DNA of 25,107 bases from a virus (IMGVR_UViG_3300044955_000198:1-25107); one strand, 5' to 3'. Positions 10,933 through 24,041 are shown, numbered from the stretch's first letter. Notes: generated from the letters alone by a model not told the origin. Numbers and translations: made by a program.

Positions 10933-13599
10933 TTAGCCCATGTATGTTGACCGCGCGACGTAGCGGACCTTTGCTTTGCGCGTCGGATTCTGTGCTTTGG
11001 TAACGGCCCTGCCCTTTGCCTCAGCGACAGCGAACTGTTCGGCCAATTCCTCCCACCGCGCATCAGACCAGCGGTCAGCCCCGAGAATCCAAGCCGCAGC
11101 TCGGGCATAAACCCGACAGTCGAGGGCTTCGTTGCGTTCCCGCAGCTTCTGCCATTCGAGCTTCGCAAAGCCGCGCTTGTTCTTGATCGTGACCAGTTGC
11201 TCGGCCGTCAACTGCTTGAGCCATTCGGCGTCGACCCAGCCCGGTAGATGGAGAAAGCCGGGAGGAAACCTCTCCTCCGCCGCCGGGCTGCTGACCTCCG
11301 GCGGATCGAGCCGCAGGAAGCGATAGGTCTCGGCCTTGAAGGTCGAGGTCGCGATCGTCCACAGACGTGCCCCTCTTCGCAGACGCTTGCCCGCGATCGT
11401 CGCGTCGACAAACGTCGGCCCTGTCACTGGGCTTGCCCGATTAAAGCCCTCAAGGCCTTTGATCGGCGCCACCTGTCCAAACCCCACCTGCCGCGCCCAA
11501 GCATAGACAGCGCTGGTCTCATAGCCCGTATCGATCGCCAGTTTGGCGAGGGTCATCGAGATACCACACTCATGCTGCCATGTCCGGCCAAGCAGATCAG
11601 AGAGTTGCTGCCAGCACGCCGGATCCCCCGGGCCACCCTCAATCACGATGTGATCGATGAGCCAGCTTTGCAGGCCCCTGCCCCATGCCCAGACATCGAT
11701 CTCAATCCGGTCTTTCTGCACGTCGACCCCAGCGGTCAGGAACAACCCGCCCGCCGGCACCATGCCCGCGCGCCAATCTTCCTTCAGACCCTGCAGTCGC
11801 TGCCAGTCCGGCGCCTCGCCACTTTCCATCCAGGTCTCGCCGAGCGAGGTGTTGACGAAGGTCTTCATGGTCTCGTCGCCGCCCGCGCGCGCCGAGAGAA
11901 ACGCCTTGGCCATGGCTTCAAGCCGCACCCAGGGCGAATAGATCTCGTTCAGATGGAAGCCTGCAGTCCCATTGAATGGCGCGTCTGCGATCCAGCGGCC
12001 CTTCGAGATGGCTGCCCAGCGGGTCTCATCCTTCCACGCGGCATCGCACTCGGCGCAATGGTAGCGCGCGGTTTCTGGACGATGGCCGCCATTCTCGTCC
12101 TTGTCCCATTTGACCTGTCCCCAGGTCAGGATTTGGTCGTGGCCACAGGCCGGGCATGGCACCCAGAACCGCCTCTGGTCGCTCTCCTCGAATGCCGCCT
12201 CGATCCGGCTCGCGCCCTTGTTCGTCGGCGTGGACACCAGCACGATCTTGCGGTTCCAAAACGTCACTGTCCGCTTTTTCGCGAGGTTGACCGGGTCCCC
12301 CTCAGCCCCTGCGCTGAACGGATAGCGATCGACCTCATCGCACAGCAGCAAGCGGATCGGCCGGCTCGCAAGGCCAGAGGGCGCATTTGCGCCCACGATG
12401 GTCAGATGCCCGCCCGGGAACCGCTTGTGCAGGATCTTGTTGTTGCCGTCTCGCGACTTCGGATTAGCGATCTTATCCTGCAAACACGGCGTATCCCGCG
12501 CCATCGGTGAGAAGCGGTCCTTCGACCAGGTTTCCGCGTCGCGCTCGGTCGGCATCACCACCATGATCGGTGCCGGGTCCTGATCGATGTGGTAGCCGAC
12601 GGCGTTGTTGACCATCTCCGTATTATGCGTCGGGATCATGGTCCGCCCCGCCAGATAGAGCCGGTTTGGGCTATCGACCTGAATGCAGCGCACAGGCACG
12701 CTCTCAACCGGCTCGACAGCGACAATACGGCGCCGCTCGGTTTCCGTTGTCCGCCGTCCCTCACGGGAGACCTGGCGCGCCCGCTTCCTAGACAGTCGGA
12801 ACACTGGCGTGTCGTCATAGATCATGAAGGAGAACCGCGTCGCAGGGTTTCCAAGACGTCGTTCGCCGTCAACCACCACCGTCGGCTGTTTGTCGACGGC
12901 AGTAAACTTGATGCCCAAGGAGGCCAACAATTCGCCAAAGCCATCCGCCAGGCGTCGGTGAATGGTGATGAACTCGCAGCGGCCGCATTCCGCGATGTAG
13001 CCGTCGGTATCCATCAGCCCTTGCAGAAGGGCCATGCGCTGATCTATCGACGCGCGCAGGTAGGCGGGCGGTATGTGTTTGCCGGTTTCTGGCGTCTTCC
13101 GATCCTTCGCCAGCCCCATCTCCCGCAAGCGCAGGCTGAACGGCTTGCCCTCCTCTAGAACAGGATCAACCGCAGAACCGTGCTTCCATTGCATCGAGAA
13201 CTGCCGCCCACATTCCGCGCACTTTCCATTTCCGTGGCGACCCAGCACATTCATGTCATGCCCGCGGCGGCAGATATGCGCTGGCCAAGGCAACGTCGGC
13301 TTCAGTGTCAGGATGTGCGGAAACCGCCTGTCCTTCGACGTCACCTCAACCTCCATGCCGCATGCGTGCAGATGGTCGGCGATTTCCAGATCATCACGAT
13401 GACAGGTGATCTGCGAGCCGTAGCTGTGGCCGTCCCCAAGCCAGATACCAAGGGCATAGGGTGGAATCGGTAAGGCCTGTTCGGGCAGCTGCAGCGCACC
13501 GGCCACAGGGATGGCATATCGGTTCCGCTTTTTCGCGCCGTAGTAATGCGCGGTTTCAGCAATCTCCTTCGTCGTCAGGACCGCCCGGTGGATCGTCAT
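10933..13599 (-). CDS. Large terminase, C-terminal ORF: intein C-part (endonuclease) plus most of GpA
   Basis: This 888-residue ORF starts at an ATG (13599) with GAGGGA eight bases upstream, inside the preceding ORF. Residues 1-326 are intein: LAGLIDADG block LGIWLGDG (50-57), a Cys/His cluster (110-130), the second block LLQGLMDTDG (191-200), block F VRCIQV with Cys305, and the C-terminal splice motif PTHN (323-326). Residue 327 is Thr, the +1 residue. The remaining 562 residues are GpA-type terminase. They have TEMVNNAVGYHIDQ, Walker B LLLCDEVDRYP, LVSTPTNKGASRIE, two CxxC pairs (CPACGH, CAEC), and the nuclease-domain start LTAGVDVQKDRIEIDVW. GpA packages DNA and cuts cos or pac sites. The ATPase Walker A is on the other ORF, so function requires splicing of both parts. 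Confidence 0.9.
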   Translation of the reverse strand: MTIHRAVLTTKEIAETAHYYGAKKRNRYAIPVAGALQLPEQALPIPPYALGIWLGDGHSYGSQITCHRDDLEIADHLHACGMEVEVTSKDRRFPHILTLKPTLPWPAHICRRGHDMNVLGRHGNGKCAECGRQFSMQWKHGSAVDPVLEEGKPFSLRLREMGLAKDRKTPETGKHIPPAYLRASIDQRMALLQGLMDTDGYIAECGRCEFITIHRRLADGFGELLASLGIKFTAVDKQPTVVVDGERRLGNPATRFSFMIYDDTPVFRLSRKRARQVSREGRRTTETERRRIVAVEPVESVPVRCIQVDSPNRLYLAGRTMIPTHNTEMVNNAVGYHIDQDPAPIMVVMPTERDAETWSKDRFSPMARDTPCLQDKIANPKSRDGNNKILHKRFPGGHLTIVGANAPSGLASRPIRLLLCDEVDRYPFSAGAEGDPVNLAKKRTVTFWNRKIVLVSTPTNKGASRIEAAFEESDQRRFWVPCPACGHDQILTWGQVKWDKDENGGHRPETARYHCAECDAAWKDETRWAAISKGRWIADAPFNGTAGFHLNEIYSPWVRLEAMAKAFLSARAGGDETMKTFVNTSLGETWMESGEAPDWQRLQGLKEDWRAGMVPAGGLFLTAGVDVQKDRIEIDVWAWGRGLQSWLIDHIVIEGGPGDPACWQQLSDLLGRTWQHECGISMTLAKLAIDTGYETSAVYAWARQVGFGQVAPIKGLEGFNRASPVTGPTFVDATIAGKRLRRGARLWTIATSTFKAETYRFLRLDPPEVSSPAAEERFPPGFLHLPGWVDAEWLKQLTAEQLVTIKNKRGFAKLEWQKLRERNEALDCRVYARAAAWILGADRWSDARWEELAEQFAVAEAKGRAVTKAQNPTRKAKVRYVARSTYMG

Positions 13600-13855
13600 G
13601 GAAAAGGTCCCTCATCGCGTCCTGCGCGCGCACTGGTGTGTCGCTGTCAACCGCCCAGAGGTGATCGGCATCGGCGATGATCGAACTGCCGTCTGAAAAC
13701 CGCACGCGGTAGCAGCGCCGATTGAGCATCACATCCGTGGCGCCCGTGACGCGGCACGGCGCGCCAGTTTCGTCAAAAAGGATGTCGCCCACCTGTACGT
13801 CGGCCATCGTGGTCCAGCCGGTAGGCGTCGCTAGCGGCGTATCGAGCGCCAGCGC
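12622..13855 (-). mobile_element. Class 3-like intein in the terminase Walker A motif, divided between two ORFs
   Basis: The intein runs from Ala (codon 13855-13853) to Asn (12624-12622). It interrupts SSQVGK / TEMV exactly after the Walker A lysine. Position 1 is Ala, so the usual Cys1/Ser1 nucleophile is missing. Block B reads DADHLW (His, then Trp at B:12), block F has Cys at F:4 (VRCIQV) and block G reads PTHN-T (Thr at G:5). This is the Trp-Cys-Thr set that defines class 3 inteins, where the F:4 Cys starts splicing. The DNA interval is 1234 bases, i.e. 411 codons plus one base. The reading frame changes near 13600, so the intein is either naturally split or carries a one-base insertion. 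A LAGLIDADG homing endonuclease with a zinc-like insert lies in the C part. Confidence 0.85.
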
Positions 13856-14140
13856 CTTGCCCACCTGTGAACTGGACATGATCACGACGGTTTCGGTGGC
13901 GGCATCAGAGACCGCTTCCATGATCCCACGCTGGTATTCCGCGCGGCTCGTGCGCCACTGGCCCGGCTCGGCGCTGGCCTCAGAGCTCAGACGGCGGTTC
14001 TGGTCTGCCCAATCGCTGATCGTCAGGTCCGGCGGCGGCTTCAGAACTGCCAGTGCCTTCGCCACTGTCCGTTTCAGGATTGGCGACCCCTTCAAGATCA
14101 ATGTCGGCTTCAAGTTCAATGTCTGGCTGCGCGAGATCAT
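13556..14140 (-). CDS. Large terminase, N-terminal ORF: N-extein plus intein N-part
   Basis: This 194-residue ORF has about 95 residues of terminase. They include LKPPPDLTISDWADQNRRLS, SEASAEPGQWRTSRAEYQRG, and the Walker A start MSSSQVGK. Intein sequence follows from Ala96: ALALDTPLATPTGWTTMADV (block A), the RCYRVRFSDGSSIIADADHL strand region (block B, His160) and Trp162. The last 14 residues (HDDPPGGPDDEGDC) lie past the frame change and have no intein likeness. It overlaps the next ORF by 44 bases. The start is uncertain: ATG 14140 overlaps the small terminase by 161 bases, while a GTG at 14065 would give a more usual GpA N-terminus. The GpA exteins add up to about 657 residues, close to lambda gpA (641). 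Confidence 0.85.
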   Translation of the reverse strand: MISRSQTLNLKPTLILKGSPILKRTVAKALAVLKPPPDLTISDWADQNRRLSSEASAEPGQWRTSRAEYQRGIMEAVSDAATETVVIMSSSQVGKALALDTPLATPTGWTTMADVQVGDILFDETGAPCRVTGATDVMLNRRCYRVRFSDGSSIIADADHLWAVDSDTPVRAQDAMRDLFHDDPPGGPDDEGDC

Positions 14141-14576
14141 CGAGCACCTCGCGGATCGCAGTGCGGATCAGGGTCCGGGTATCTCCGACGGTGGGTTGGT
14201 CAAAGGCCTGTGGCGCCAGCCGATCCGGCAGCGCCAAAAGGCGGGTTCTCAGAAGCGCAAGCACGGCGATCCAGGCTGCCTCAATCTGGTCCGCTGCGAT
14301 CAGCGAGTGGCGCTTTTCCTCGGCTTCCATTTCAGCGAGGTTCGCCCGCGCTCGGATGAACCGCGCACGTTCGGCGGCATAGTCTGGCGCACCGGCCTGC
14401 GCCTTGACGGCCTGGTCGCGCAGATAGCGGACATAGCCGCGCACAGAGCCGATCAGGTCATACTGCCCACGCTCGGCCTTTGGGATCACACCCTCGCGGC
14501 TCAGTTGCTGCACCCGCCGTTCCGAGAGATCGAGGAGTCGCGAGATGACGCTGATGGGTTGGGTGGCGTTTGACAT
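13980..14576 (-). CDS. Terminase small subunit, Nu1-like
   Basis: The product is 198 residues from the ATG at 14576 with a strong AGGGGGGAG ribosome site; the longer frame to 14693 lacks support. Residues 1-50 form a winged HTH resembling lambda Nu1: ISVISRLLDLSERRVQQLSR, EGVIPKAERGQYDLIGSVRG. Next come YVRYLRDQ, a long helix (ERARFIRARANLAEMEAEEKRHS) and DQIEAAWIAVLALLRTRLLALP, also as in Nu1. The C-terminal 50 residues are acidic and look disordered. The protein should bind the cos or pac DNA and recruit the large subunit. Its 3' part overlaps the terminase N ORF. Confidence 0.88.
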   Translation of the reverse strand: MSNATQPISVISRLLDLSERRVQQLSREGVIPKAERGQYDLIGSVRGYVRYLRDQAVKAQAGAPDYAAERARFIRARANLAEMEAEEKRHSLIAADQIEAAWIAVLALLRTRLLALPDRLAPQAFDQPTVGDTRTLIRTAIREVLDDLAQPDIELEADIDLEGVANPETDSGEGTGSSEAAAGPDDQRLGRPEPPSEL

Positions 14577-15180: not shown

Positions 15181-15418
15181 AAGGCAAACTATCGCCGACT
15201 CCACGACGCGCAGCAAGCTGGTTAAATAGCCGCCGCAGAGCGAACGATCGCAACAGGCTGACGATCGTGAAGATCCCGCCCATAGCAAGATTTTGTCCCA
15301 ACGTTGTTTGCAGCCCAAAGATCGGAAAGATCAGGATCTGCGTCACAACCGCGACGCCATAGCCGACGATCACGTTGGTGATCGCCTCGACCAGAGACAT
15401 GAGGCGGGACTGGTTCAT
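15122..15418 (-). CDS. Small membrane protein, DUF7220-like
   Basis: This 98-residue protein starts MNQSRLMSLVEAITNVIVGY. It has two hydrophobic segments, about residues 13-36 (NVIVGYGVAVVTQILIFPIF) and 42-57 (NLAMGGIFTIVSLLRS), followed by FALRRLFNQL. This two-helix pattern, with the polar N-terminus SRLMSLVEA, matches the DUF7220-type membrane proteins common in alphaproteobacterial phages. Function is unknown. A holin-like role is conceivable from size and position near the end of the non-structural genes, but nothing proves it. Its ATG overlaps the methyltransferase stop (ATGA). Confidence 0.7.
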   Translation of the reverse strand: MNQSRLMSLVEAITNVIVGYGVAVVTQILIFPIFGLQTTLGQNLAMGGIFTIVSLLRSFALRRLFNQLAARRGVGDSLPYVQNAVARYTAFRCRQGGR

Positions 15419-16647
15419 GCAGCCGCGCGCTCAGGTTTCAGGGCATCGAAGGTCATCTCGCCACCCTCAAGCACTGCCTCTTTGCCCGTGAATTTCTGCC
15501 AGCGTTGGACGGCTACATCGATATAAGCCGGGTTCAGCTCGATCCCGAGACAAACGCGGCCCGTGGTCTCGGCTGCGATCAGCGTCGTTCCTGATCCCAT
15601 GAAGGGTTCATAGACCGCCTGCCCGGGGCTCGAGTTGTTTAGGATAGGCCGTCGCATGCATTCCACGGGCTTCTGCGTCCCGTGAACGGTTTTTTCGTCT
15701 TGGTCCTTGTTTGCAATATACCAGAGCGTTGTCTGCTTGCGATCACCCGCCCAATGGCCTTTGCCGGTCTTTTTGACAGCGTACCAGGCCGGTTCATGCT
15801 GCCAGTGATAATCTCCACGGCTCAGAACCAACCGTTCTTTGGCCCAGATGATCTGCGACCGGATGGTGAAGCCTGCGACCTCGAGACTTTCGGCGACTGT
15901 GGCTGCATGCAAGGCGCCATGCCAGACGTAGGCGACGTCGCCGGGAAACAGCCCCCAGGCTTCGCGCCAGTCGGCCCGGTCATCATTCAGCACCTTGCCG
16001 GTGCGCTTAGTCTTGGCGGCGCCCGCTTGGTTGCGCCAGCTCGGGTCATATTCAACACCGTATGGAGGATCTGTCGCCATAAGGAGGGGTGTTATCCCGT
16101 TCAAGACGCGCTCTACATCCGTGGCGACGGTGCTGTCGCCGCAGAGCAGCCGGTGGTTGCCGAGGATCCAGAGATCGCCGGGGCGGCTGATCGGAGCCTC
16201 GGGAGTTTCCGGCACATCTTCCTCACCCTCTTGGGGACCGGCGCCGTCCTCAAGGCTGGACATCAGTGCGTTGAGTTCATCGTCGGTGAAGCCCGTCAGG
16301 CCAAGGTCGAACTCCGCCTCCAGCAGGTCAGCCATCTCAAGGTTAAGCAGGTCCTTGTCCCACTCCGCGTTTTCGCTGGAGCGGTTGTCCATGATCCGGA
16401 AGGCCCGCGCCTGCGCCTCGCTCAGCCCCTTGGCCACATGCACCGGCGCGGTCTTGAAGCCGAGCTTGCGCGCAGCCTCGAGCCGCGTGTGCCCGGCCAG
16501 CACAACCATCGCCTCGTCCACGACAATCGGCTGGCGCCAGCCGAATTCCTGGATCGATGCCGCGACCGTGGCAATCGCCTCGGCGTTGTTCCGCGGGTTG
16601 CGCGCATAGGGAATGATCTGCTCAAGCGGCAGGTCGACAACGTCCAT
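15415..16647 (-). CDS. ParB-like domain fused to DNA methyltransferase (N6-adenine/N4-cytosine type)
   Basis: This 410-residue protein has an N-terminal ParB/Srx-like domain at about 1-95 (LPLEQIIPYARNPRNNAEAI, LAGHTRLEAARKLG, RIMDNRSSEN). An acidic linker follows (130-150), then a DNA methyltransferase at about 155-400 beginning GDLWILGNHRLLCGDS. The catalytic DPPY is at 193-196 and the S-adenosylmethionine motif FMGSG at 349-353, the beta-class order. The target recognition part lies between. Such fusions are common in phages and probably protect phage DNA from host restriction or mark it; the target site cannot be read from the sequence. AAGGA lies seven bases before the ATG. The upstream gap carries unusual repeats. 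Confidence 0.92.
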   Translation of the reverse strand: MDVVDLPLEQIIPYARNPRNNAEAIATVAASIQEFGWRQPIVVDEAMVVLAGHTRLEAARKLGFKTAPVHVAKGLSEAQARAFRIMDNRSSENAEWDKDLLNLEMADLLEAEFDLGLTGFTDDELNALMSSLEDGAGPQEGEEDVPETPEAPISRPGDLWILGNHRLLCGDSTVATDVERVLNGITPLLMATDPPYGVEYDPSWRNQAGAAKTKRTGKVLNDDRADWREAWGLFPGDVAYVWHGALHAATVAESLEVAGFTIRSQIIWAKERLVLSRGDYHWQHEPAWYAVKKTGKGHWAGDRKQTTLWYIANKDQDEKTVHGTQKPVECMRRPILNNSSPGQAVYEPFMGSGTTLIAAETTGRVCLGIELNPAYIDVAVQRWQKFTGKEAVLEGGEMTFDALKPERAAA

Positions 16648-21167: not shown

Positions 21168-22741
21168 GGGGCGAACCTGTAGCCGGAGATTTCGAAGTAG
21201 CGGCCCGAGGGGCGGACCGAGATTCCGCTGGGGCGCGCGAGGCGGCTCACCTGCGCGATAGCCTCATCCACGCTGAGCGGCACGGGCAGCCCCGGCGCAC
21301 GCTTCCGCCACCATTCGGCGGCCTTCTGGCGCGCATAGCCCTGATGCTCGAAGCAGATCCATTCGTTGTAGGTGGTGAGACCGCAGCTATAGGTGACCTT
21401 GAGCGTGGGCCGCCCGCCGCGTTTGTCGTGACGGCTGTAGGATACGCCGCTCACCTGCAGCCATTGAGACGCTTTTGGGGACAGGACCGGCAGCGCGGCT
21501 GCAGTCGGCGTAATCTTCACCTCACGGGCCGGGAAGACATAGCCACAGTCCGGACACTCGGTCGCCGAGAGCGCGACAATGCTTTCGCATTCCGGGCAGA
21601 CCTTGGTCGGCGCCTCACCATCGCCGCCGTCTCCAGGACGCTTCGGGCGGACGAGATCGATCGGCCCGTGAAGGCGCACATTGCCGGCAAAGTCGAGAAC
21701 GAGGCAGTTTTCCTTGCCCGGTGCCAACCGCGTGCCCCGGCCAACCATCTGGACGTAAAGCCCGGCGGATTTCGTGGGGCGCAGAAGCGCGATGAGATCA
21801 ACCGCGGGAGCATTGAACCCGGTGGTCAGCACGCCCATCGAGGCCAGCGCCCGGATCTCTCCACGTTTGAAGGCGCCGATGATGCTATCGCGCTCATCCT
21901 TCGGCGTGTCTCCGAAAATCGTCTCACAGCTGATGCCGCGCCGCCGGAACTCTTCGGCTACATGTTGGGAATGCTCGACGCCCGAGCAGAAAGCGAGCCA
22001 GGACTTCCGGTCTTTGCCGTGTACCATGATCTCGGCCACGGCCGCTCGCGTGATCGCCTCCTGGTCGACCGCCGCCGCCAGATCGCGGGCAATGAACTCG
22101 CCAGCACGGGTGCCGACCTTCGACACATCGAGCCGGGTGACAGGTTGCTTGGAGATAAGCGGGCTGAGATAGCCTTGGTCGATCAACTCCCGGACCGGCG
22201 CCTCGTAGGCGATGTCGGTGAAGAGCGCGTTCTGCCCCTCGTGCAGCATCCCGCAGTCGAGGCGGAATGGTGTGGCGGTCAGCCCGATCACCTTCAGCGC
22301 CGGGTTGATCTCCTTCAGTGAATCGAGGAAGCGCCGATACATCGTGCTCGATTTGCCGGGGATCAGATGCGCCTCGTCGATCAGCACGAGATCCGTGTGG
22401 CCAACCTCCTGTGCGCGGCGGTGGATCGACTGGATGCCCGCGAACAGGATCCGCGCCTGCGCCTCGCGCTTGCCCAGACCCGCCGAATAGATGCCCGCTG
22501 GCGCGTCGGGCCAAAGACCGATCATCTCGGCATAGTTCTGCGCGATCAGCTCGCGCACATGGGTCACGATCAGGATGCGCTGATCGGGCCAGGCCTTCAG
22601 CACGCCTTCGATGAAGGCGGCCATGACGAGGCTTTTGCCACCCGCCGTCGGGATGACCACCAGCGGATTGCCGATGTTAGTTTGGAAATAGCCGTAGATC
22701 GAAGATATCGCGGCGTTTTGGTATGGGCGCAGGGTCAGCAT
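21002..22741 (-). CDS. DEAD/DEAH-box helicase (SF2) with zinc ribbon
   Basis: This 579-residue protein has all SF2 motifs: Walker A PTAGGKS (31-37), DEAH (122-125), TAT in LTATPFR (154-160), and QMVGRGTR (331-338). A zinc ribbon with C382, C385, C396 and C399 (CPEC...CPDCGY) follows, then a domain with YNEWICFEHQGYARQKAAEW. It should unwind DNA during phage replication or recombination. The last 55 residues are Ala/Ser/Pro-rich and low in complexity; they coincide with the overlapping start of the DUF6511 gene. The start at 22741 overlaps the nuclease stop by seven bases. Confidence 0.92.
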   Translation of the reverse strand: MLTLRPYQNAAISSIYGYFQTNIGNPLVVIPTAGGKSLVMAAFIEGVLKAWPDQRILIVTHVRELIAQNYAEMIGLWPDAPAGIYSAGLGKREAQARILFAGIQSIHRRAQEVGHTDLVLIDEAHLIPGKSSTMYRRFLDSLKEINPALKVIGLTATPFRLDCGMLHEGQNALFTDIAYEAPVRELIDQGYLSPLISKQPVTRLDVSKVGTRAGEFIARDLAAAVDQEAITRAAVAEIMVHGKDRKSWLAFCSGVEHSQHVAEEFRRRGISCETIFGDTPKDERDSIIGAFKRGEIRALASMGVLTTGFNAPAVDLIALLRPTKSAGLYVQMVGRGTRLAPGKENCLVLDFAGNVRLHGPIDLVRPKRPGDGGDGEAPTKVCPECESIVALSATECPDCGYVFPAREVKITPTAAALPVLSPKASQWLQVSGVSYSRHDKRGGRPTLKVTYSCGLTTYNEWICFEHQGYARQKAAEWWRKRAPGLPVPLSVDEAIAQVSRLARPSGISVRPSGRYFEISGYRFAPCAKPTQPSAPSATVSPGASAGSIQSSVSPTAGGMPAASSSAAAPAKTSAMGGRA

Positions 22742-23679
22742 GGCGCGGCCTCCGTGGTACGGGCGTCATTTGACCAGGAGGAGCCATCGGCCATGCGGTA
22801 GGTGACGATGTCGTCTCCCGCATCGATGACCTCACCCGGCACGAGATCGGGGACGAAGAGGTGTTTGTCGCAGGCCGCACGCTGCTCGGCCGGAGCCAGC
22901 ATCCGGTCGTGGCGGGCGCAGTGCCACCCGCCGTCGATCGGCGTCGCGTGCAGGCATGATCGGCAAGTTACGGCAGCACCGCCACCTTCGTGGCAAGCAG
23001 CATGGTGATCGCAGAAACGGCATTCAAACCAGGCCGGGTCCTCGCTGATCCGCGCCGGCGGATGCTGCGCGAATATGATCCGGCCGGCTTTCTCCAGAAG
23101 CCTCTCGGCCATGGCGCGGTCGACCTTGATGCGTTCGATATGCAGCGCGTCAGTATTCTTGCAGACCGCCATGTAAAGCGCCCGGGTGATTCCGGTCAGG
23201 TGCATGTAGATCTGCATCTGCGCCGCGTGCTGCGGCTTCGACAGCACCACGCCTTTCGCGCTCAAATCAGAAAAGCTCTTAACGCCATGTGTCTTGAACT
23301 CCAGCACATGCCAGGTTTTCGGCGCCTCAAGCAGACCGAGCGCGACGCCATCCAGCGAGCCACCGAAATGACCTCCATGGGCCTCCACGCGGACTTGACG
23401 TCCTGTTTCTGGATCCACTTCCAACACGGTCGCACCGGTGGCGCGCAGGTTGCGGACCATACGATCCTCTTCCAGCTGGCCTGTCTCGAACAAACGCAAC
23501 AGCCGGCCGGAAAATCGTGACGGCGACACCCAGCGGAAATCATACCAGAGCGCGCGTGCGCAGGATTTACCGATGATTGATGCGCCGAGGTGATCACGGA
23601 AACCATCGCCCTGGCGGGCCTCGTAATCGGCGTATATCGCCGTCAGTGTCGGCGTGGGGGCTTCGGGAAGCTCTGCCAT
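22735..23679 (-). CDS. PD-(D/E)XK nuclease, Cas4/RecB-like
   Basis: The product is 314 residues from the ATG at 23679, which overlaps the preceding stop (TGATG). The nuclease core shows GGSLDGVAL (D110), HVLEFKTHG (E127, K129) and QMQIYMHLTG (Q154, Y158), the PD-(D/E)XK motif II-III-QxxxY arrangement of the RecB/Cas4 group. Downstream lie CRFCDHHAACHEG and further Cys residues (CRSC, C...H), which may bind zinc or an iron-sulfur cluster as in Cas4. It probably acts as a phage exonuclease in recombination, together with the ATPase and helicase encoded beside it. Confidence 0.87.
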   Translation of the reverse strand: MAELPEAPTPTLTAIYADYEARQGDGFRDHLGASIIGKSCARALWYDFRWVSPSRFSGRLLRLFETGQLEEDRMVRNLRATGATVLEVDPETGRQVRVEAHGGHFGGSLDGVALGLLEAPKTWHVLEFKTHGVKSFSDLSAKGVVLSKPQHAAQMQIYMHLTGITRALYMAVCKNTDALHIERIKVDRAMAERLLEKAGRIIFAQHPPARISEDPAWFECRFCDHHAACHEGGGAAVTCRSCLHATPIDGGWHCARHDRMLAPAEQRAACDKHLFVPDLVPGEVIDAGDDIVTYRMADGSSWSNDARTTEAAPC

Positions 23680-24041
23680 CACAGACCCTCCCGTTCGCTG
23701 CGCGCCTGCGCCTCGGCCAGAATGCTCTCCCAGGCCTCAGGGTCATGGCGTTCGCGCAGGATGCCGATCAGCGCGTCCTTTAGCTTTTCGCGGCGACGGC
23801 GGCCGGTGCCTTGGGCCAAGAGTTCCGCGCGCTCGCGGCACAGGTGGCGAAGGGCCGTGCGGGCCCGGTGGAACCAATCCGGATCGATCGGCTTCTGGCC
23901 GCGCTGGCGGGCAAGATCGGCCGTCGCGATCTGCGTGCGGATCTTGGCGATGGCATCGTCGAGTTCGATCAGCCGCCGCTGATCATCAGGCAAGCCGGGG
24001 CTGTTCACGGCCACGGGGGCCGCGTTGGTCATGTCAGTCAT
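23679..24041 (-). CDS. Small helical phage protein of unknown function
   Basis: This 120-residue protein starts MTDMTNAAPVAVNSPGLPDD. It is almost wholly helical and charged (QRRLIELDDAIAKIRTQIAT, RARTALRHLCRERAELLAQG, REKLKDALIGILRERHDPEA), with coiled-coil character. No motif is recognised. GAGGAT lies seven bases before the ATG. It is coupled by TGATG to the nuclease gene, so a helper role in recombination or replication is possible. Confidence 0.78.
   Translation of the reverse strand: MTDMTNAAPVAVNSPGLPDDQRRLIELDDAIAKIRTQIATADLARQRGQKPIDPDWFHRARTALRHLCRERAELLAQGTGRRRREKLKDALIGILRERHDPEAWESILAEAQARSEREGL

Follow-up and report, generated by a model that had tools for sequence, protein, structure and literature searches.

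The 25,107-base virus record IMGVR_UViG_3300044955_000198 (the window, meaning the whole stretch of DNA analyzed) carries on its minus strand a gpA-type terminase gene that is interrupted, directly after the lysine of its Walker A motif, by a 1234-nucleotide (nt) intein. The interruption is very probably a naturally split class 3 intein with a Trp-Cys-Thr (WCT) triplet, the C-terminal half of which contains a LAGLIDADG endonuclease. Also likely, though less certain, is the wider proposal that this is a selfish, mobile split intein, which was broken once and has spread by homing as a two-gene unit among the terminases of Rhodobacterales phages, making packaging depend on class 3 trans-splicing.

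The intein interval (12622-13855) amounts to 411 codons plus one base and is encoded by two open reading frames (ORFs); ORF 2 lies in the +1 frame relative to ORF 1 and overlaps it by 44 nt (Table 1). Following SSQVGK, the N-half opens with ALALDTPLATPTGWTTM; ORF 1, which includes the block B sequence DADHLW (Trp67 of the His-Leu-Trp is at 13655-13657), then continues ...DADHLWAVDSDTP and has its stop codon at 13556. The F:4 cysteine (Cys305 of the C-intein) is encoded at 12685-12687. The C-half ends in VPVRCIQVDSPNRLYLAG...MIPTHN, and the intein portion of ORF 2 closes with VPVRCIQVDSPNRLYLAGRTMIPTHN; next come TEMVNN, the remaining ATPase and the GpA nuclease. Pfam places GpA_ATPase (PF05876) in both ORFs, and GpA_nuclease (PF20454) and LAGLIDADG_3 (PF14528) in ORF 2. 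Judging from its GpA ATPase and nuclease domains, the interrupted protein is a gpA-type terminase large subunit. A first-pass annotation, made from the sequence of the window, had described a Walker A motif cut after its lysine by an intein with Ala1, HLW in block B, Cys at F:4 and Thr at G:5, all of which was verified on the minus strand; it was also right in every number, namely the ORF limits (13556 and 13599), a GAGGGA eight bases ahead of the second start, the 44-base overlap and the length of 411 codons plus one base.

Conservation of the split junction

Relatives were collected by scanning IMG/VR (66 relatives) and a species-level genome collection (80) with the C-half, and an extra profile scan of IMG/VR added more; with profiles built from the split clade, both halves were located in 222 sequences. 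A C-half in the +1 frame is present in 39 loci, corresponding to 28 sequences that are distinct at the junction and 74-99% identical to the window. The first-pass annotation had suggested looking for the same two-ORF layout in homologues, and every relative that is more than 73% identical and spans the junction has it; together with the Pfam domains and the matches to class 3 intein structures, this puts the finding far beyond chance. Ala1 and the second start are 256 nt apart in each of the 39 loci, with zero indels. The split terminase is found in phages of marine bacteria, and its carriers include isolate genomes of Thalassovita autumnalis (two copies), Thalassobius vesicularis, Paradonghicola geojensis, and Seohaeicola saemankumensis.

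A search of the relatives for close homologues whose intein is continuous, which the first-pass annotation had named as a refuting result, found none. Outside the split clade, 170 inteins have both halves in one frame, and 141 of these are open from the first to the last block. Contiguous class 3 relatives are ~52% identical to the window or less, and two served as contiguous controls: L079, whose insertion site is likewise GK-T, and L304, from the same bacterial family. Within a sample of 395 genomes of the Thalassovita family, the split form occurs in three (in one of them twice) and a contiguous relative in one. The split is a real, inherited arrangement; the natural split proposed in the first-pass annotation is well supported by 28 distinct sequences with one junction, NTG start codons, all catalytic residues retained and purifying selection in both halves.

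Three of the loci call for separate mention. A distant terminase intein (L175:1949-2900) is the sole exception outside the clade, as its halves are in different frames; it was considered as a second split and rejected, since it is a lone metagenomic contig interrupted by several stops elsewhere and probably reflects an error or a pseudogene. The two split-intein terminase copies of Thalassovita autumnalis CECT 5118 (L067 and L069, on contigs C24 and C48 of G001) have C-halves that are ~91% identical, and with two split terminases in one genome, crosswise trans-splicing between two prophages is conceivable. Finally, ORF 2 of L025 (2595-6023) is 1142 amino acids long, ~250 above the others, and its extra C-terminal part has no Pfam match; this may reflect a fusion to the following gene or an artifact of assembly.

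Class assignment and position of the split

Residue 1 of the intein is not a nucleophile, as Ala1 is found in 28 of 28 distinct sequences, and B:10 His and B:12 Trp are likewise identical in all 28. Among the sequences that reach them, F:4 Cys and G:5 Thr are each conserved in 27 of 27, and G:6 His, G:7 Asn, Lys-1, and Thr+1 do not vary either. In a sequence comparison with solved structures, the class 3 DnaB inteins of Mycobacterium chimaera (6rix) and M. smegmatis (6bs8) score best, with E-values of ~1e-32. The assignment of the window intein to class 3, with a canonical WCT triplet, is therefore well supported by these invariant residues and best matches, in agreement with the first-pass annotation.

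The position of the split was examined on an AlphaFold model of the contiguous L079 intein, which has a GK-T insertion as in the window and was aligned to the two window halves. The model (predicted local distance difference test, pLDDT, 93.8; predicted template modeling score, pTM, 0.90) matches PI-SceI along its full length and, in the splicing domain, the class 3 DnaB inteins (6rix and 6bs8, TMt 0.84-0.88). Its block B strand comprises residues 66-71 and the following strand residues 87-92. The first methionine of the window C-half aligns with about residue 84, in the loop of lowest model confidence. According to this model, the break falls in the loop that connects the block B strand to the following Hint strand, ahead of the loop in which endonucleases are usually inserted and split inteins usually broken. 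This refines the first-pass annotation, which had placed the split between block B and the endonuclease, where natural splits occur. With the break in this earlier loop, the C-half carries the following strand and helix.

Initiation of ORF 2

Each of the 28 distinct sequences begins ORF 2 with an NTG codon (ATG in 26, TTG in 2), and an exchange of ATG and TTG preserves the start codon yet alters a residue of ORF 1. Codon-position variability follows ORF 1 upstream (position 3 has ~1.0 bit vs. 0.2) and switches to the ORF 2 frame exactly at this codon. Most members have a stop in the ORF 2 frame four or five codons upstream and no other start, so that ORF 2 can begin only at the NTG or through frameshifting. 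The pairing energy with the anti-Shine-Dalgarno sequence averages -7.4 at the ORF 2 start vs. -4.4 (standard deviation 2.4) at the other ATGs of the same inteins, which were the only background used. The ATG/TTG interchange, together with this moderate Shine-Dalgarno signal, indicates that the C-half has start signals of its own.

Programmed +1 ribosomal frameshifting at the overlap would instead produce a single precursor, from which the intein would splice in cis. Such +1 frameshifts are known in bacteria and phages, and both the +1 frame offset and the 44-nt overlap are compatible with one. It nevertheless appears unlikely here, as no common slippery motif precedes the start (the sequence is CTTTTCC, CTGTTCC, CTCTTCC, CTGTTCG, CGCCTTG, or CTGCTCC), the codon preceding the ORF 1 stop varies (TGC, CGC, AGC), and in L019 the ORF 1 stop is 123 nt further downstream. 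Moreover, the interchange of ATG and TTG and a switch of constraint at exactly that codon fit a start codon.

Selection on both halves

Both intein halves are under purifying selection. The ratio of non-synonymous to synonymous substitution rates (dN/dS) is 0.02-0.28 in the core of the N-half, 0.01-0.06 in the C-terminal Hint part, 0.06-0.19 in the endonuclease, and <0.09 in the C-extein; the linker just ahead of the ORF 2 start codon is relaxed, with dN/dS up to ~1. These low values indicate that both halves and both exteins are maintained together, as would be expected if they form one machine.

Decay of the intein would mean that the split terminase is dead, and that its carriers are cryptic prophages or phages that use another terminase. 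Some carriers are indeed prophages in bacterial genomes, and one Thalassovita genome has two copies. This explanation is very improbable, however, given that dN/dS is low in the two exteins and the two intein halves alike over large synonymous distances, that the catalytic residues are invariant, that spread into new alleles has continued, and that genes for the terminase small subunit, portal, protease, and head are retained in the window. An ordinary contiguous intein that only seems broken through a sequencing or assembly mistake, or was recently broken by a frameshift, to which an interval of 3n+1 bases and a run of four thymines near the break had pointed and which the first-pass annotation considered a serious alternative, retains practically no probability, because the junction recurs in 28 distinct sequences, which come from many assemblies and include several isolate genomes. 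The thymine run itself (13602-13605), suspected as the source of the frame break, is unrelated to it: most relatives, among them the Thalassovita autumnalis copy that is 99% identical, read CTGTTCC at this place, with the split unchanged, so that the TTTT of the window is a point substitution of TGTT and the homopolymer did not cause the change of frame.

Several points weigh against the reading of the window as a mobile split intein. The structural placement of the split depends on a contiguous homologue that is only ~50% identical. The Shine-Dalgarno signal is no more than moderate, and since ~10% of the other ATGs are equally good, its strength alone is no proof of a start. Re-initiation would require moving back over 42 nt, which is uncommon, so that initiation de novo has to be assumed. 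A +1 frameshift might still produce some contiguous precursor. Furthermore, ordinary phage recombination could account in part for the homing-like islands of identity described below.

Proposed trans-splicing mechanism

The conserved catalytic residues and the selection on both halves suggest that the two products of the split gene trans-splice. Ribosomes would start independently at the internal ATG or TTG, giving two separate proteins, which would then assemble via the Hint fold. In the C-half, the F:4 Cys would attack the bond between Lys and Ala1, the acyl group would be transferred to Thr+1, and cyclization of the Asn would free the intein halves, leaving an uninterrupted ...SSQVGK-TEMVNN... 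terminase like that of intein-free phages. Intein-free alleles of the same terminase family (65 loci) have an uninterrupted Walker A of the SSQVGK-TE or SSQIGK-SE type; this defines the splice junctions exactly and reveals what trans-splicing should restore. Because the break lies inside the Walker A motif, packaging ATPase activity should require trans-splicing.

Homing of the split intein

Both LAGLIDADG aspartate motifs (GxWLGDG, and GLMDTDG or GLMDSDG) are kept in 27 of the 27 sequences that reach them. Between the two motifs, the window has a zinc-ribbon-like insert, CRRGHD...CAECGRQF (13190-13280, minus strand; C-intein residues ~110-135), which is kept in the split clade and echoed in many contiguous relatives. 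In the proposed cycle, terminase alleles without the intein would be cut by the endonuclease of the C-half, and their repair would copy both halves in together.

In the intein tree, the split inteins form one clade with a support of 99, and the break therefore most likely happened once. In the extein tree, whose contiguous rows are on very long branches and which was therefore read for split and empty rows only, the split terminases are scattered among intein-free ones, with 14 changes between presence and absence, at least 8 of them forced by well-supported branches. For instance, the intein DNA of L005 and L014 is 98.6% identical (synonymous divergence, dS, 0.04), whereas their exteins are 75% identical (dS 1.46); in the pairs L011/L069 and L005/L006, the inteins are likewise far closer than the exteins. 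Identity is 96-100% across the whole split intein in L005/L014 and L011/L069, and decays over ~100-250 bp on each side. In L005/L006, the identical stretch spans all 900 upstream bases compared and ends ~200 bp downstream. When the split L016 is compared with the intein-free L248, identity is 97-99% upstream and 99-100% further downstream, and 71-75% in the 75 nt flanking the insertion on each side.

The intein-free gpA alleles (L223-L297) are of two local types at GK-T, SQVGKTE(V/M)(V/L)N and SQIGKSES(I/L)L. Split-bearing genes are of the first type even where they otherwise cluster with genes of the second (e.g., L016 with L247/L248), a pattern that fits co-conversion. The islands of identity look like footprints of homing with co-conversion. 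As the shared tract in those pairs contains both halves and the junction, the element appears to have moved as a split intein. The split unit is apparently still mobile, in keeping with the intact LAGLIDADG domain in its C-half; its conservation, single origin and apparent mobility are points that the first-pass annotation did not see.

Relation to known inteins

Natural split inteins of class 1, such as cyanobacterial DnaE, gp41-1, and the atypically split AceL-TerL, consist of two separately encoded halves that trans-splice. AceL-TerL also sits in a terminase. In class 1, the first nucleophile is residue 1 of the N-half, atypical members are split near residue 25, and in the known cases the endonuclease is absent or free-standing. 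In the window family, both nucleophiles and a probably working homing endonuclease are on one fragment.

The statement of the first-pass annotation that split inteins are known mainly as class 1 needs one amendment, as a natural class 3 case has already been published. A survey of 1701 class 3 inteins contained no split form, and a single, atypical one, AceL NrdHF, was characterized from metagenomic data (Hoffmann et al., 2020, PMC7891396). Like the window family, AceL NrdHF is naturally split, has Ala1 and an internal branch cysteine in motif C2 (block F), and is of probable phage origin; it trans-splices experimentally by the class 3 route (PMC7891396). AceL NrdHF is, however, a mini-intein of 146 amino acids (98 + 48) that has Met in place of Trp in its triplet (MCT) and no His in motifs C1/C2 (PMC7891396), while the window family has a LAGLIDADG endonuclease inside the C-half, the canonical WCT and the histidines. 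A free-standing GIY-YIG endonuclease lies between the AceL NrdHF genes (PMC7891396), whereas the ORFs of the window family overlap with nothing between them; AceL NrdHF is split at the canonical site, the window family one loop earlier; and AceL NrdHF is represented by one metagenomic contig, in contrast to a conserved family with a terminase host. With its endonuclease internal to the C-half and its ORFs overlapping, the window family is not of the AceL NrdHF type. A sequence link between the two was also rejected, since the split-family profile gave no match to AceL NrdHF among the sequences of the Protein Data Bank (PDB). No further natural split class 3 intein turned up in the open-access literature, to which the search was confined. 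The window family is a second, separate lineage of natural split class 3 inteins beside AceL NrdHF.

Contiguous class 3 and class 1 inteins are common in the ATPase domains of phage terminases (PMC5050341). The contiguous class 3 LAGLIDADG terminase inteins (L079 from Parvibaculum, L304, and those of mycobacteriophage TerL, PMC5050341) share the Hint/endonuclease architecture and WCT of the window family, and L079 also shares its GpA Walker A insertion site. Unlike the window family, they are encoded in one continuous frame and splice in cis. The closest solved splicing domains, those of the mycobacterial DnaB inteins (6bs8, Msm DnaBi1; 6rix, Mch DnaB1), also have WCT, but these are contiguous mini-inteins that lack an endonuclease and reside in DnaB. 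When artificially split at 94/95, which is later than the natural split described here, DnaBi1 trans-splices (PMC10559147).

As a conserved family with the textbook WCT triplet, these inteins show that a class 3 intein can exist in split form in nature and be retained as such. The family provides a natural case of how a split intein may originate, by one frame change and an internal start codon within a loop, and one in which to ask whether a split intein can still home. In addition, its 28 sequence variants are available for trans-splicing tools, and the dependence of phage DNA packaging on splicing could be tested in this system by simple genetics.

Features of the locus

Table 1. Parts of the split terminase gene and the adjoining small subunit gene, in window coordinates.
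Feature	Position	Strand	Remarks
ORF 1, 194 aa	13556..14140	(-)	N-extein through SSQVGK and N-intein; 5' limit putative; GpA_ATPase positions 1-45; PHROG terminase large subunit
N-intein, 99 residues	13559..13855	(-)	Ala1 at 13855; variable tail overlapping ORF 2
Shine-Dalgarno-like GAGGGA	13608..13613	(-)	8 nt ahead of ORF 2 start; purine-rich in all relatives
ORF 2 start codon	13597..13599	(-)	ATG in the window
ORF overlap/split junction, 44 nt	13556..13599	(-)	ORF 2 in +1 frame
ORF 2, 888 aa	10933..13599	(-)	C-intein and C-extein
C-intein, 326 aa	12622..13599	(-)	Hint strand and helix, LAGLIDADG endonuclease, blocks F and G; terminal Thr-His-Asn
Homing-endonuclease region in C-intein	12760..13467 (limits approximate)	(-)	GIWLGDG and LLQGLMDTDG motifs; CxxxH...CxxC zinc-ribbon-like insert
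C-extein	10933..12621	(-)	Remaining GpA ATPase (+1 Thr of Walker A) and GpA nuclease
Terminase small subunit gene	13980..14576	(-)	Upstream of and overlapping ORF 1; phrog_57, E 6e-28

Two further genes of the window, both on the minus strand, lie outside the split terminase. Just upstream of the terminase genes, a ParB-N domain is fused to an N6/N4 DNA methylase (15415-16647), and a gene for a Cas4-domain exonuclease (22735-23682) adjoins the phage helicase and primase genes.
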